Source: Atopobium fossor DSM 15642 (GTDB lineage Bacteria; Actinomycetota; Coriobacteriia; Coriobacteriales; Atopobiaceae). Taken from it: a stretch of DNA of 64,000 bases. The translations under genes and the position numbers were made by a program. Where the stretch lies: assembly GCF_000483125.1 (NCBI RefSeq), contig NZ_KI519553.1:841124-905123 (forward strand), written 5' to 3'. A model generated the notes under the pieces. The model was not told the DNA's origin. It saw nothing but the letters and a program-made list of their open reading frames with translations, and ran no database searches. Below are positions 387 to 7,877 of the stretch, piece after piece (position 1 is the stretch's first letter; every line of letters begins with the position of its first letter).

Positions 387-1025
387 ATGAGCTTCCAAAA
401 CACCGTTCGTGTAAACCGTGAAAAGCTCGGCTTAACACAAGATGAATTAGGAGCAAAGGTTGGTTTGACCGGTTCATCTGTCAGCCAGTGGGAAGCTGGG
501 CGAGCAAAACCACGTATAGGCGTATTAAAACAACTTGCCGAATTATTCAATATGAGCACGTCTGAGCTGCTTGGAGAAGAATTACAGTACGCTAATAGAG
601 CTATCCCCTTCCGTGGCACCTCCGCAATGGTGCCCATGCGCGTACTTGGCAAAACTCATGCAGGTGAGACAACAGAGCAGATAGAAGATATAAAGCTCGT
701 AGAAGTCCCTGAAACCGTAGCGCGCAATCATCCAGACGCATTCATGTTGCAAGTTGAGGGCGATTGTATGAATCGTTCGTATCCAGATGGCTGTTTGGTC
801 ATGGTAGATCCTCTCTTGCAGCCCTGGAACGGCTGTGCGGTCGTAGCAGAGCCTAGTGTAGGTGAATCAGTACTTAGGCGTTATATGCGTGGACAATCAT
901 CCATGATGCTTGCAGCAGACAGCTTTAGCGCCTATGACGACATGGTGTTTAGCGGTGAGGATGAAGTGAAGCTTGTCGGTGTCGTTGTGTGGTATCAGGC
1001 GGCACAAGAAGAGTGCGAGAGGTAG
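387..1025 (+). CDS. CI-like XRE/S24-family repressor, catalytic dyad apparently lost
   Basis: A 212-residue regulator with an N-terminal XRE helix-turn-helix (about residues 4-62, including TGSSVSQWEAGRAKPR) and a C-terminal S24/LexA-like domain (about 80-205). A typical S24 protein cleaves itself at an Ala-Gly bond using a Ser-Lys dyad. The Ala92-Gly93 bond is present in HAGE, but the motif that normally reads GDSM is GDCM here (Cys127), and the position expected for the catalytic Lys reads SVLRR, with Leu163. Self-cleavage is therefore doubtful. The start has the ribosome-binding site TTGAGGAG. It sits head-to-head with the small XRE gene and directly upstream of the TcmP gene, so it probably represses the accessory genes and its own promoter. 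Confidence 0.85.
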   Translation: MSFQNTVRVNREKLGLTQDELGAKVGLTGSSVSQWEAGRAKPRIGVLKQLAELFNMSTSELLGEELQYANRAIPFRGTSAMVPMRVLGKTHAGETTEQIEDIKLVEVPETVARNHPDAFMLQVEGDCMNRSYPDGCLVMVDPLLQPWNGCAVVAEPSVGESVLRRYMRGQSSMMLAADSFSAYDDMVFSGEDEVKLVGVVVWYQAAQEECER

Positions 1026-1054: not shown

Positions 1055-2293
1055 ATGGGCAGTACGAAAGACTGGGACAAAGAACATAAACCATGGTCTG
1101 AAATTAAAGATTTCCTACTCAGCAACTATCTAAGTATTTTCTTTCAAAAAGTCATGTCTGTTCGTGAACATAAAATTTTATATTTTGATGGCTTTGCTGG
1201 TCCGGGCATCTATAACGATGGTACCGAAGGCTCGCCAATAATAGCAATCAAAAAAGCGGGTCGAGCTTTTATGAAAGCAAAGAATAAAAAATCTGTTTCA
1301 TTTATTTTTGCTGAGACAGCAAAAGCACGTGCCAATACATTGTCAGACACCGTAAGCAATAATTCTTTTATTAAAAACTTAAGTTTTAAATATGTTGTAT
1401 ATGATAAAGGCTTTCAGGCCGCTATACGGGAAGTTTTAGCTAATAAAGATAAATACGGTACCTATTTCTTTTACATAGACCCCTTTGGTATTTCATGTTT
1501 AGACTTTCAAATGTTCAAAAATATATCTCAGCTTAACGGTCTGCGTAATTGCGGTGTAGAAGTGCTTCTTAACTTCTCGACAGTTGGATTTTTGCGCGAA
1601 GCTTGCTGTGTATTGTCCAAGGAATTTATCGTTCCAAAAGAGGATATTACTTTAGTTGACGAAGGCTTTGACACACAAGCAAGCTTAGAAGAACGTCATG
1701 CACGCCTAACCCAGATTTTTGGTAATGAAGACTGGGTCGATATAGTTAGAAAAGCAAAGAATGGTGAATTTTGGCGTGCAGAACTTGAGCTAGTTGACAA
1801 TTTCTGTCATAGGCTCAAACAAGACGATGCTTTTAAATTCACAACACACATTCCCATTGTTGACACATCAAAAAACATCAAACGTGGTGGACTTATTAAA
1901 TATAGGTTGGTCCATATGTCTAATCATTGGCAAGGTTGTATTGCTATGAATAATACGATGATAAAAGCATTAAATATGGAACGGCAACCATCGTTATTTC
2001 CTGTTGATGGCAATGGTGCATACATCAATCCAGCTGATATAGATGCTGCGTTTCGTAGGGTTTTACACGAAAACGTTCGCATTAGACAAAAGTGTGCGAT
2101 GGGCGAACTTGCAGCAATGGTTATTTCAGAAATGGGAATCACCGAAAAACAAAATAGTTTGTGTAAAACATATATTGGTAAGCTACTTGATGAAGGTTGT
2201 TTGGAAAGGGTAGAAAAGTACACCAAAACAGGTAAACCATCACACTCTTTCGGTGAAAAAGTCGAGGTCATTAAGTGTAAAGACACAATGTAG
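1055..2293 (+). CDS. tcmP: Three-Cys-motif partner protein (TcmP family)
   Basis: A 412-residue protein with the TcmP-family signatures DGFAGPG (residues 45-51), followed by TEGSPIIA, and FFYIDPFG (about 138-145). FAGPG and DPFG resemble the SAM-binding and catalytic motifs of class I methyltransferases, so a modified methyltransferase fold is plausible, though no reaction is established for the family. The last 100 residues or so look like a winged helix. I chose the ATG at 1055 because GGAGAGGAT lies just upstream of it; an in-frame ATG at 1040 is possible. The family is named for its genetic linkage to a protein with three clustered cysteines, and the next gene is exactly that. It follows the CI-like gene by 29 bases and probably shares its transcript. 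Confidence 0.8.
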   Translation: MGSTKDWDKEHKPWSEIKDFLLSNYLSIFFQKVMSVREHKILYFDGFAGPGIYNDGTEGSPIIAIKKAGRAFMKAKNKKSVSFIFAETAKARANTLSDTVSNNSFIKNLSFKYVVYDKGFQAAIREVLANKDKYGTYFFYIDPFGISCLDFQMFKNISQLNGLRNCGVEVLLNFSTVGFLREACCVLSKEFIVPKEDITLVDEGFDTQASLEERHARLTQIFGNEDWVDIVRKAKNGEFWRAELELVDNFCHRLKQDDAFKFTTHIPIVDTSKNIKRGGLIKYRLVHMSNHWQGCIAMNNTMIKALNMERQPSLFPVDGNGAYINPADIDAAFRRVLHENVRIRQKCAMGELAAMVISEMGITEKQNSLCKTYIGKLLDEGCLERVEKYTKTGKPSHSFGEKVEVIKCKDTM

Positions 2294-2334
2294 GACTATA
2301 ATATAAATAGAACATTTGTTTGGAGGTGTGCTAA

Positions 2335-3105
2335 ATGCATGAGCTACAACATATCACACGTAAGTCTATGCTCTATAAAACTGAGGTCGAATACGGAAAT
2401 TGGGCAATGAACCATGTACAAGGCTGTAGCCACGGATGTTTATATCCATGTTACGCATATCTCATGGCAAAGCGTTTTGGCCGTGTGTCTTCCTACGAAC
2501 AATGGTGTACCCCTGCAATTGTGGATAACACACTTGAATTGCTTGCTAAAGAACTTCCTAAGCTTGCTAAAAAGATTGATTCTGTCCAGCTATGCTTCAC
2601 TACCGATCCTTTTATGTATGGCTATGACGAGATTTGTCAAATGAGCGTTGATGCAATCAGGCTTATTAACTCTTTCGATGTACCTTGTACTGCATTAAGT
2701 AAAGGTGTTTTGCCGGAAGAGTTGAAATCTTTGTCACAAAAAAATGCTTATGGCATTACACTTATATCTCTTAATGAGCAATACCGCCAAAAAACAGAGC
2801 CTGGTGCTGCTCCTTACGTTGAACGCATAGCTTCACTCAAAAAGCTACATGATAATGGGCAGCAAACATGGGTTAGTATTGAGCCATATCCAACGCCAAA
2901 TCTTCTAGAGCAGGATTTAGGTGAAATTCTTAAAACCATTTCTTTTGTTGATAAAATCATCTTCGGTCGTACTCATTACAACAAAGTTGTAAGCGCATAT
3001 AAGCAGTGCCGAGAGTTCTATAACGAGCAATCACACAAAGTTATAGATTTCTGCCAAGAAAACGACATTGCATACCACATTAAAGACGGCACTCTTCAAG
3101 AATAA
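2335..3105 (+). CDS. CX3CX3C three-Cys-motif protein, radical-SAM-like partner of TcmP
   Basis: A 256-residue protein with an N-terminal motif GCSHGCLYPCYAY, placing cysteines at residues 31, 35 and 39. The context resembles the SAM-dependent Fe-S site of SplB-like radical SAM proteins, but the spacing is CX3CX3C rather than the usual CX3CX2C because a proline is inserted before the last cysteine. The remainder alternates predicted strands and helices as in a partial TIM barrel (for example TWVSIEPYPTP and KIIFGRTHY). A strong ribosome-binding site, GGAGGTG, precedes the ATG. It lies 41 bases after the TcmP gene on the same strand, so the two very likely work together. A role in nucleic-acid modification or phage defence is inferred from the mobile context only. 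Confidence 0.7.
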   Translation: MHELQHITRKSMLYKTEVEYGNWAMNHVQGCSHGCLYPCYAYLMAKRFGRVSSYEQWCTPAIVDNTLELLAKELPKLAKKIDSVQLCFTTDPFMYGYDEICQMSVDAIRLINSFDVPCTALSKGVLPEELKSLSQKNAYGITLISLNEQYRQKTEPGAAPYVERIASLKKLHDNGQQTWVSIEPYPTPNLLEQDLGEILKTISFVDKIIFGRTHYNKVVSAYKQCREFYNEQSHKVIDFCQENDIAYHIKDGTLQE

Positions 3106-3182: not shown

Positions 3183-3238
3183 AAGGTAGGTCTTTATAGC
3201 CTACCTTGATTAAGTGTGAGGAAATATGGCTATAAAGA
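3183..3238 (+). promoter_or_regulatory. Possible pseudoknot covering the integrase start
   Basis: AAGGTAGG (3183-3190) pairs with CCTACCTT (3200-3207). The loop of that hairpin, extended by two bases, is an 11-base perfect complement of 3228-3238, which is the G of the integrase start codon plus codons 2-5. The ribosome-binding site GTGAGGA lies between the pairing arms. The arrangement could fold as an H-type pseudoknot or as two competing hairpins that open or close the integrase start. An alternative is that the repeats are arm-type binding sites for recombination proteins on DNA. Confidence 0.4.
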
Positions 3239-4377
3239 CTAGATCTAAACTCGGCAGCAAACGACAGCTCAACGATGGACAATGGCTTGTTCGCGTTCGC
3301 AAGGGTTATCGTGCTGATGGTAAGCCAAGAGAACTCTCAAAAGTCTGTCCAACAGAGCGTGACGCAGATATGACCATCGCGCAATTTGCACTTGAGATGG
3401 GGCGCAATGAAGCCATAGGCTCAAAGGTCACGCTATCTTGGTACTTTTATGAGGTGTTTATCCCCTATCGCATGGCATATTTAACCAAGGCAACCATCAT
3501 CAGATACAAAAGCTGCTTTAAAAAAGATATTGAGCCACGATTTGGCGATTATGAGCTTGGAGACATTCCGCACGCCCAAATACAAGCGTGGATTAACCAT
3601 ATGACGTATGCAAAGGCTAAGCGCTGCATAACAACCCTTAGAGCAACTCTAAGAGCCGCATGGGATGACGGATATATACCAGACGAACCAATGCGCCACC
3701 GCTTAAGATACCCGCGCAATACAAATGACTCTCGCGTGGTCTGGTCAGCTCAACAGGTTTCACAGGCCATCAAAGCTTTAGAGAACAGCCCTCTTGAAGC
3801 TTTAGCGTTGTGCATGGTTGGCGGAGGACTACGGCGTGAAGAAGCTTATGCGCTGTTTTGGAATGACATTGAATTTATGCAGGTACAAGTAAACGGACAA
3901 ACATCAATGGTATGCCGTGTAACTGTCGATGATGCAGTTACACCAGAAGACGGACGAAAGGAAACTAAGACACGCTTTAGTGACCGTATCATTACTATTG
4001 CAGAGCCGTTTTCATCGCAGCTTAAAGCCATCCAAGGCAAGCCAAAAGACCCGATATGTGATATTTCTCTTACGCATGTAGGACGTGTTTGGAGAAACCA
4101 CTGGACACCGCTTAAGCGTGACTGTCCAAACAACAAGCCTGTATACCGCGGCAAAATGCTTGAGTCAGACGTGCCATATATCCCTATGAGCCGCCTTAGG
4201 GCAACCCATGAAACACTGCTACAGCGTGCAGGAGTAGTCGACACTGTAAACGCTGCAATACACGGACGCTCTGAGCTTTCAAGTGTAGGCTACAAGCATT
4301 ATTTAGTGCCAGGAGAAGACACCGTAACCCCTGCCGCGCAGGCTATGGGAGCACTCATATACAAAGAGCTTGCGTAA
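3226..4377 (+). CDS. int: Tyrosine recombinase (integrase)
   Basis: A 383-residue site-specific recombinase. The first 60 residues resemble the small N-terminal DNA-binding domain of Tn916/phage-type integrases (NDGQWLVRVRKGYRADGK), then a SAM-like core-binding domain (about 65-165) and the catalytic domain. Catalytic residues visible are the first Arg in GGGLRREEAYAL, the second Arg in PMSRLRATHETL, the late His in IHGRSELS and the nucleophile Tyr in VGYKHYL. The residue that is His in the HxxR motif of most relatives is Ser here, a substitution seen at that position in some family members. The gene ends 75 bases from the 3' end of tRNA-Cys, the usual position for an integrase that uses a tRNA as its target. 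Its initiation region can form the structure described at 3183-3238. Confidence 0.93.
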   Translation: MAIKTRSKLGSKRQLNDGQWLVRVRKGYRADGKPRELSKVCPTERDADMTIAQFALEMGRNEAIGSKVTLSWYFYEVFIPYRMAYLTKATIIRYKSCFKKDIEPRFGDYELGDIPHAQIQAWINHMTYAKAKRCITTLRATLRAAWDDGYIPDEPMRHRLRYPRNTNDSRVVWSAQQVSQAIKALENSPLEALALCMVGGGLRREEAYALFWNDIEFMQVQVNGQTSMVCRVTVDDAVTPEDGRKETKTRFSDRIITIAEPFSSQLKAIQGKPKDPICDISLTHVGRVWRNHWTPLKRDCPNNKPVYRGKMLESDVPYIPMSRLRATHETLLQRAGVVDTVNAAIHGRSELSSVGYKHYLVPGEDTVTPAAQAMGALIYKELA

Positions 4378-4406: not shown

Positions 4407-4439
4407 AAAAAATGGGGTATCTTTTTCTAAAGAAACCCC
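4407..4439 (-). terminator. Intrinsic terminator of the tRNA-Gly/tRNA-Cys operon
   Basis: On the minus strand GGGGT and ACCCC close a hairpin with an inner TCTTT/AAAGA stem and one mismatch, followed by ATTTTTT. It lies 14 bases past the CCA end of tRNA-Cys. If the element joined at the tRNA 3' end, this terminator may have come with the element. Confidence 0.75.
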
Positions 4440-4452
4440 AGTTTAAATGCTA

Positions 4453-4526
4453 TGGAGGCGGCACCCCGATTCGAACGGGGGATCAGGGATTTGCAGTCCC
4501 ATGCCTTACCACTTGGCCATGCCGCC
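4453..4526 (-). tRNA. tRNA-Cys (GCA)
   Basis: A complete 74-base cloverleaf including an encoded CCA. The acceptor stem is GGCGGCA/TGCCGCC with discriminator T, the anticodon loop is CTGCAAA, and the T-arm contains GTTCGAATC. It lies 41 bases downstream of tRNA-Gly on the same transcript. Its 3' end faces the integrase, making it the probable attachment target of the accessory block. Confidence 0.97.
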
Positions 4527-6203: not shown

Positions 6204-7877
6204 ATGTCCTCTCGAGACCACTATAAAAATGCGGGAAACCCTACTGGCGATGCGGGACGTACGCTTCTGGATGGCATGAACTCCGGTACACATGAGCGCC
6301 TAGCGGCTTGGAGTTTACCTTTACTTAAACAGACGGTAGAAGCTGCTTTTAGCAGCAAACCTCTTACATCAGCACTTGACGTAGGATGCGGTGGTGGAGC
6401 AAACCTTACACGTCTTATGAACTTATTTGAAGATGCCCAGGTATATGGTTTGGATCATTCTCCTATTTCTGTAGAGACATCTAAACTCACCAATACAGAT
6501 GCTATAGCTGCAGGACATTGTGAAATTACAGAGGGTGACGTAGCTGCACTTCCATACCACTCAAATAGCATCAACCTTGCAACAGCATTTGAGACCATCT
6601 ATTTTTGGCCCGATGTACAAGCTGGATTGTGCGAGATTTTTCGAACACTTACGCCTGGTGGTCTTCTTATGGTTTGTAACGAGACTGATGGTCGCAATTT
6701 TGATCAACTACGATGGCAAGACTTATCTCAAGCTACAGACCTTCTTACCATTTACTCTCAGCAACAACTCGTGGAATTTTTTACCACTGCCGGTTTTATG
6801 AACGTGCAGGTACAGCGTCATCCCCAAGAAGACTGGATTGTCGTTTTTGGTCAAAAACCTGATATAAATGGCACTATGAATAACAATGCCAGGCTTTTCT
6901 CAGCAGGAAACATTGCAGGCATCGCAATTAAAAACAAACTGTTTGCTCCACCCATGGCATCAAGAAGTGCCACGGAAGAAGGATTAGTTTCATCAAAGAC
7001 ACTGGCCTATTACGACAAGATCACACAATCTCAAGAGCTTGGTATGGTGATTGTAGAACATCATTTTGTAGACCCAATAGGACGAGCAGATCCACATCAA
7101 CTGAGTGCCGCTCGTGATGATACATTGGAGGGGCTCAGTAAGCTCGCTAAAACAATTCATAAACATGAAGCTGCTGCCATACTGCAAATCAATCACGCGG
7201 GACGTGTAGCGGATTGTGAAGGAACACCTGTTGGTCCCACTAACCACATGGTTGAACGTTGTCACAAGCAACCTCAGGCACTTACATCCAAGGATATTAC
7301 AAAGATTTGTAATGCCTTTGCATGTGCTGCAAAGCGTGCTCAGAAAGCTGGTTTTGACGGTGTAGAAATTCATGCAGCACATGGATACTTACTCAGCCAA
7401 TTTATCTCCCCTCTCTCTAATACACGCACGGATGCATATGGTGGCACTATCCAAAACCGTGGGCGCTTTGCAGTAGAAGTTATTCGTGCGGTCCGTACAG
7501 CCGTAAAAGATTTTCCGGTATTCATTCGTTTTGGTACTTACGATGGTGTGCCTGAAGGAACCACTACCGCTGATTGCGCTGTATTGGGACGCATGTTCCA
7601 AGATGCTGGTGTAGATGTAATTGACATCTCTGGTGGACTATACGGCTATGCCTTTGATGATCGCAAAGATTTGGATACCTACTTTGTCCAAGAAGCCCAT
7701 GCAGTACAAGAAACTACTACTATTCCCATCATATTAGCTGGTGGTATTACCAAACCAGAAGTTGCTCAGGCATTGGTGGCGCAAGATGGTTTTGCCATGG
7801 CTGGTGTAGCACGCCAATTATTACGTAACCCCTTATGGCCAACAGAAGCTAAAGTAGCGCTTACCAAGAAACACTAG
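6204..7877 (+). CDS. Fusion of class I SAM methyltransferase and Old Yellow Enzyme
   Basis: A 557-residue two-domain protein. Residues 1-220 form a class I SAM-dependent methyltransferase with motif I LDVGCGGGANL (58-68), an acidic strand end in VYGLDHS and the post-motif PGGLLMVCNETDG. From about residue 230, after a short linker, begins an NADH:flavin oxidoreductase/Old Yellow Enzyme barrel: KNKLFAPPMAS, the FMN-binding INHAGR, the HAAHGYLLSQFISP signature with the His390/His393 substrate pair, NTRTDAYGG, and the C-terminal GGITKPEVAQ and GVARQLLRNP. It lacks the Fe-S and NAD-binding extension of the long dienoyl-CoA reductase type. The reading frame is continuous through the junction. The ribosome-binding site is CAGGAG. 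The substrate is unknown; a paired reduction and methylation of one small molecule is an inference. Confidence 0.88.
   Translation: MSSRDHYKNAGNPTGDAGRTLLDGMNSGTHERLAAWSLPLLKQTVEAAFSSKPLTSALDVGCGGGANLTRLMNLFEDAQVYGLDHSPISVETSKLTNTDAIAAGHCEITEGDVAALPYHSNSINLATAFETIYFWPDVQAGLCEIFRTLTPGGLLMVCNETDGRNFDQLRWQDLSQATDLLTIYSQQQLVEFFTTAGFMNVQVQRHPQEDWIVVFGQKPDINGTMNNNARLFSAGNIAGIAIKNKLFAPPMASRSATEEGLVSSKTLAYYDKITQSQELGMVIVEHHFVDPIGRADPHQLSAARDDTLEGLSKLAKTIHKHEAAAILQINHAGRVADCEGTPVGPTNHMVERCHKQPQALTSKDITKICNAFACAAKRAQKAGFDGVEIHAAHGYLLSQFISPLSNTRTDAYGGTIQNRGRFAVEVIRAVRTAVKDFPVFIRFGTYDGVPEGTTTADCAVLGRMFQDAGVDVIDISGGLYGYAFDDRKDLDTYFVQEAHAVQETTTIPIILAGGITKPEVAQALVAQDGFAMAGVARQLLRNPLWPTEAKVALTKKH

Follow-up and report, generated by a model that had tools for sequence, protein, structure and literature searches.

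We wondered what a pair of genes flanked by those of a CI-like repressor and an integrase, beside a tRNA-Cys gene, might do for the DNA that carries it. The pair belongs to Atopobium fossor DSM 15642 (genome 1.65 Mb) and lies near the start of the 64,000-nucleotide stretch analyzed here, which we call the window (G000:C1:841124-905123). A sequence-only reading had described the first gene as encoding a TcmP-family protein with FAGPG and IDPFG motifs, the second as encoding a protein with cysteines spaced CX3CX3C, and their position as above. Matches to TIGR04474, Pfam, PHROGs and ARAGORN, together with the motifs themselves, bear out this description (Table 1). The best-supported reading of the pair, to which we give a probability slightly below one half (about 0.48), is that of a modification module of two enzymes which is expressed in lysogens and acts in defence.

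Table 1. Features at the prophage end of the window (window coordinates).
Feature	Position	Strand	Evidence or remark
CI-like prophage repressor	387..1025	+	Pfam HTH_3 5e-14, Peptidase_S24 1e-13; phrog_4 repressor 1e-29
TcmP, class A	1055..2293	+	ORF opening at 1040; TIGR04474 124 bits, cut-off 53
FAGPG motif, methyltransferase motif I region	1193..1207	+	TcmP residues 47-51
IDPFG motif, methyltransferase motif IV position	1475..1489	+	TcmP residues 141-145
SPL-like radical-SAM protein (rSAM), 256 aa	2335..3105	+	PF04055 above gathering score
CX3CX3C motif C31-SHG-C35-LYP-C39	2425..2451	+	P38 = inserted residue
Prophage integrase, tyrosine-recombinase-type	3226..4377	+	phrog_1 integrase 1e-28; PF14659; end ~50 bp from attR
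attR	4430..4496	+	overlaps 3' end of tRNA-Cys; 67-bp repeat with attL
tRNA-Cys(gca), integration target	4453..4526	-	ARAGORN

The genes for the repressor, TcmP, the radical-SAM protein (rSAM) and the integrase follow each other on the same strand, separated by 29, 41 and 120 bp. Given this arrangement, expression of the CI-TcmP-rSAM genes in the lysogen is likely, and we infer that they are co-transcribed. Scans for promoters and terminators returned fewer sites than in shuffles. TcmP likely starts at the ATG from which we number its residues; an RBS-like GGAGAGG lies 5' of this codon, and the choice agrees with the starts of homologues. The genes had been assigned to a tRNA-targeted element. 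The tRNA-Cys target stands, but the element has to be redrawn as a whole prophage of ~33.9 kb in the 3' end of the tRNA gene, which begins outside the window and is bounded by attR and attL (G000:C1:811675-811741), two repeats identical at 64 of 67 bp. PHROGs matches within it include terminase, head maturation protease, major head protein, tape measure, endolysin, dUTPase, SSB and an anti-repressor, and the same stretch is present with 100% identity in a viral contig of IMG/VR (L106). The TcmP-rSAM pair is thus prophage cargo, lying between the att sites of an element that also encodes phage structural proteins. A second integrase is encoded inside the same prophage (L015:11055-12269, on G000:C1 outside the window; PF00589, 99.6 bits), while the integrase on the attR side matches PF00589 weakly; two elements may have fused to form this prophage. 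Elsewhere in the window, the N-terminal part of the product of a single ORF (6204-7877) is a SAM methyltransferase (Methyltransf_11, residues 58-156), and fused to it is an old-yellow-enzyme family FMN oxidoreductase (PF00724, residues 235-553).

The methyltransferase-like character proposed for TcmP from its motifs agrees with the AlphaFold2 model, which predicts a class I SAM-methyltransferase fold (pLDDT 83.9, pTM 0.87). Foldseek matches in the PDB were SAM methyltransferases (E 1.5e-5), and the best target-normalised TM-scores were reached with the 23S rRNA methyltransferase RlmJ (TMt 0.53). With the glycines of motif I and the acid of motif IV in place, the model points to a SAM-dependent enzyme of predicted methyltransferase activity; IDPFG may resemble motif IV of the tRNA methyltransferase Trm1. 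TcmP proteins fall into about eight classes, all of which pass TIGR04474 (97-193 bits for classes B-H). Across 20 representatives of the eight classes only K18, Y25, D45, G51, D142 and P143 are invariant besides the start methionine. TcmP diverges so fast that a scan of the genome contigs with the single sequence gave no match. Class A, which includes the window protein, has a C-terminal winged-helix-like region that class B (~287 aa) lacks; this region is therefore not a universal target reader. TcmP is immediately preceded by a small HTH gene of the Cro/C1 type, possibly a dedicated regulator, at 18 of 106 loci (12 with class C, 6 with class A), for example at L024:2761-3066 and L025:3486-3707.

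The second protein of the pair scored 37.8 bits against Pfam Radical_SAM (cut-off 29.5). Its AlphaFold2 model (pLDDT 94.6, pTM 0.91) found its best PDB matches in spore photoproduct lyase (SPL; E 2e-7, TMq 0.66-0.70), and it retains the full SPL-like barrel, the aromatic residues flanking the third cysteine and the family's TDP/EP motifs. A search of the PDB by sequence gave no relative of TcmP or rSAM. The cysteine motif reads GC-SHG-C-LYP-C-YA (window sequence GCSHGCLYPCYA). When rSAM was aligned by hhalign to SPL and to DUF5131, both alignments placed a gap at exactly Pro38, and the spacing is therefore explained by one inserted proline, which follows a conserved aromatic residue of the SPL-like fold and precedes its third cysteine. 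The pattern CxH(G/A)Cx(Y/F)PC is present in 109/109 homologous ORFs (the genome matches among them being the best 80 of 261), which is far beyond chance, and the canonical cluster motif CX3CX2C is absent from the window protein and from all 109. Nine further Actinomycetota copies, reached via TcmP rather than via rSAM, also have CX3CX3C. The non-canonical spacing with its proline, noticed beforehand in one protein, is hence a fixed trait of these homologues. Other cysteine spacings exist in the radical SAM superfamily, and a non-canonical spacing alone does not exclude membership. Judged by the motif, the cluster site may be altered. The nearest outsider, a phage protein (L126), has the canonical CX3CX2C, and its locus showed no ORF resembling TcmP. 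Three further cysteines of rSAM, Cys87, Cys118 and Cys240, are each at least 90% conserved. Cys87 adjoins the site that the alignment pairs with the hydrogen-donor cysteine in SPL, which provides a lead towards a role like that of the SPL catalytic cysteine. The motif of NifB is called 'CX3CX3C' in a review (PMC9692996). Searches by tblastn with rSAM gave no match among plasmids and two unannotated gut scaffolds among phages.

How firmly are the two proteins tied to each other? A search with the rSAM alignment recovered 261 genome relatives, of which the best 80 were retained; these are 57-67% identical to the window protein across at least seven phyla, a high value in part because the best 80 of 261 were selected. 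TcmP is encoded directly upstream of rSAM at 97 of 102 non-duplicate loci (genome matches again the best 80 of 261). Two of the other five end at contig edges (L034, L041) and one has a TcmP remnant (L063), leaving as real exceptions L037 and L076, the latter with genes of the sce7726/sce7725 families instead. Approached from the other side, in an independent sample of 246 Actinomycetota genomes, TcmP scored above cut-off in 33 genomes, and a three-Cys protein stood beside it at 29 of the 30 loci inspected, the thirtieth being broken by an IS30-like element. The partners were DUF5131 proteins with CX6CX2C (18 loci), CX3CX3C proteins (10) and one CX3CX2C protein. Class B TcmPs found beside DUF5131 and beside CX3CX3C proteins are 38% identical over their full length, so that the two partner types look interchangeable. 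These data support the conserved pairing on mobile DNA that had been suggested; the sequence-only reading had named independent occurrence of the two proteins as grounds for giving up its view, and we saw this largely not, apart from the two exceptions. The distribution is patchy: neither of the other two genomes in the genus has the pair, and TcmP was found in 5 of 140 genomes of the family. At L187:1354-3181 the single CX3CX2C protein follows a divergent TcmP; this protein is 24% identical to the window rSAM and represents a third partner type. At two actinobacterial loci large Schlafen-type genes lie beside rSAM (L043:2106-5045 and L037:11111-14326; SLFN-g3 helicase, SLFN AlbA_2), neither of which matches a PADLOC model.

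Although the pairing is conserved, the TcmP in it is not. On the rSAM tree, no fewer than 28 changes of TcmP class are needed, against a minimum possible of 7. Single exchanges can be followed in closely related loci. L031 and L029 have upstream DNA of 90% and rSAM genes of 93% identity, but the TcmP is of class B in one locus and of class D in the other. L081 and L070 agree in their flanks and in rSAM, and the TcmP that these enclose is of class A or C. In L075 and L082 the main common stretch coincides exactly with the rSAM gene (91%), preceded by class B or A. L084 and L076 are 96% identical through rSAM and 4 kb beyond, and in L076 the TcmP is replaced by sce7726 and sce7725 family genes directly upstream of rSAM (L076:8137-9942), families that may represent a related or interchangeable module. 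Six loci even carry two TcmPs before one rSAM, of classes A and B in L069 and of classes C and B in L088, L110, L116, L117 and L118. Because TcmPs are swapped in place and two of them can share one rSAM, we tentatively assign the role of common catalyst to rSAM and that of selector to TcmP.

A likeness to defence systems had also been noted, and the genes around the pair strengthen this notion. Of the 121 genes nearest the pair at other loci, eight match type III methyltransferases, up to seven match type II models and three type I, with Pfam matches to GmrSD, MmeI, FokI and EcoRI methylase. No restriction-modification (R-M) methyltransferase was among the matches listed for 121 control genes, which were drawn from randomly chosen regions of Actinomycetota genomes, and the control genes matched 32 PADLOC families, the nearest genes 409; the enrichment of R-M genes is strong but not exact, as the controls are Actinomycetota and many of the test loci Bacillota. 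Individual neighbours include BrxL, a type XI retron-like reverse transcriptase, a type III methyltransferase and a DrmD-like helicase. Defence islands also carry anti-restriction and unrelated cargo. A TcmP of S. meliloti, SMa2243, has been listed together with the defence gene hna (PMC12445080).

Our preferred reading would combine these observations as follows. The pair may be a mobile two-enzyme module that the prophage carries as lysogeny cargo. TcmP, with its predicted class I methyltransferase fold, would be the exchangeable component that faces the target, and the SPL-like rSAM the constant catalyst, whose [4Fe-4S]-SAM site would be held by a cysteine loop longer by one residue, the proline. 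Together they would modify a nucleic acid, the most likely substrate in view of the fold similarities to RlmJ and SPL and of the neighbours. Judged by the neighbourhood, the most likely role would be defence against other phages, exerted by lysogens that express the CI-TcmP-rSAM operon. We also speculated about a more specific version, a radical-chemistry immune system in which a single conserved CX3CX3C enzyme would carry out the same unusual nucleic-acid modification in numerous bacteria and prophages and the exchangeable TcmPs would choose its target, by analogy to the specificity subunits of restriction enzymes; we regard this version as possible, if rather unlikely.

The same two enzymes could instead serve the element itself. 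As an anti-restriction or hypermodification cassette, the pair would modify the DNA or RNA of its own phage and so escape host restriction, in keeping with the methyltransferase fold of TcmP and with the many prophages and viral contigs that carry the pair, often near phage DNA polymerase and R-M genes. However, the window pair is located beside lysogeny genes rather than lytic ones, many copies reside on cellular contigs among R-M genes, and TcmP classes are swapped in place, for which a self-modifier has no obvious need; we think this explanation unlikely. About equally unlikely is an abortive toxin-antidote system, in which TcmP would harm an RNA or DNA target of the host, rSAM would remove the mark, and infection would upset the balance. 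SPL reverses a DNA lesion, and the rSAM fold is closest to this repair lyase; the two genes have overlapping or nearly overlapping ends, and one eraser could serve several writers that differ in target, matching the loci with two TcmPs. An antidote would, however, not need to occur without TcmP or together with sce7726/sce7725, as rSAM does (L076).

Doubts may also be raised about the chemistry. Instead of acting by radical chemistry on the final substrate, the three-Cys protein could assist TcmP, as its maturase or as an accessory to its metal site, with the longer loop holding another cluster or metal, since every homologue shows a cysteine spacing other than CX3CX2C and the CX6CX2C of DUF5131 partners indicates tolerance of spacing. 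The complete SPL-like barrel, the retained aromatic residues and TDP/EP motifs and the match above the Radical_SAM cut-off argue against this idea, which we consider improbable. A metabolic or housekeeping pair without any immune or parasitic role appears very improbable: enzymatic folds fit many roles, but such a function is at odds with the patchy distribution, the location on prophages and the proximity to R-M, BREX and retron-type genes.

The defence module that we favor over these alternatives would matter beyond this prophage, as mobile DNA commonly carries the pair across phyla of bacteria. The cluster loop differs by one fixed residue, a change that is tied to one partner and permits tests of how cluster geometry affects enzymes of the radical-SAM superfamily, and the exchange of TcmP beside an unchanged rSAM provides a testable hypothesis as to which subunit sets specificity. 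To viperins, the known radical-SAM example in bacterial immunity, the pair would add radical chemistry directed at a new substrate, should it prove to be a defence system.

Which of this was known already? The initial statement that no function is established for such pairs does not mean that nothing is known of them: the pairing is recorded in the NCBI name of TIGR04474, 'three-Cys-motif partner protein', and PADLOC lists TcmP with DUF5131. TIGR04474 covers all eight TcmP classes tested and its name is silent on the identity of the partner, class exchange and function. In PADLOC-DB 2.0, TcmP and DUF5131 constitute PDC-M30 and PDC-M41, unvalidated defence candidates obtained by 'guilt-by-embedding'. 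Their A components share the TcmP superfamily with the window pair. PDC-M41A is a class B TcmP, matched in full by class B proteins with 298 bits (CX3CX3C loci) and 308 bits (DUF5131 loci); the match of class A to PDC-M30A is partial (E 2.9e-18 for the window protein). The B components differ, both M30B and M41B being DUF5131 instead of an SPL-like CX3CX3C radical-SAM protein: proteins of the latter kind match them weakly (E 1e-4 to 5e-3), the window rSAM at E 4e-4 to 7e-4 over ~50 residues, and the DUF5131 profile scored below cut-off against the window rSAM. Most PDC systems are unvalidated predictions (PMC12988326). Among 100 P. aeruginosa strains, 32 were predicted to carry PDC-M30, and 69% of these were classed as phage-resistant (PMC10855318).

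With respect to rSAM, SplB is the closest solved fold (hhalign E 4e-4, 182 columns), and the tyrosines on either side of the third cysteine are kept. SplB has CX3CX2C where rSAM has CX3CX3C, and identity is ~13%. What we take to be the catalytic cysteine position of SPL, Cys140/141, corresponds to F88 by hhalign, with a cysteine at the neighbouring residue 87. We rejected the assignment of rSAM as an SPL, as this cysteine is unaligned and no SPL model was among its NCBIfam matches. Its best profile matches were PA0069, Rv2578c and radical SAM mobile pair B, which are COG1533-like (E 7e-11 to 9e-7), yet rSAM reached 29-42 bits, far below the curated cut-offs of 360-430, and relatives of this type (L126, L014) have the canonical CX3CX2C. 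Radical SAM mobile pair B is by its name borne on mobile elements, as is the window pair. The published papers searched, preprints aside, gave no description of a CX3CX3C partner, of TcmP classes or of their exchange, and only passing mentions of DUF5131, Gp37/Gp68, TIGR04474 and TcmP. Known systems thus include the pairing of TcmP and the unvalidated PADLOC candidates; the CX3CX3C partner and the modularity of the pair appear, by the papers searched, to be new.
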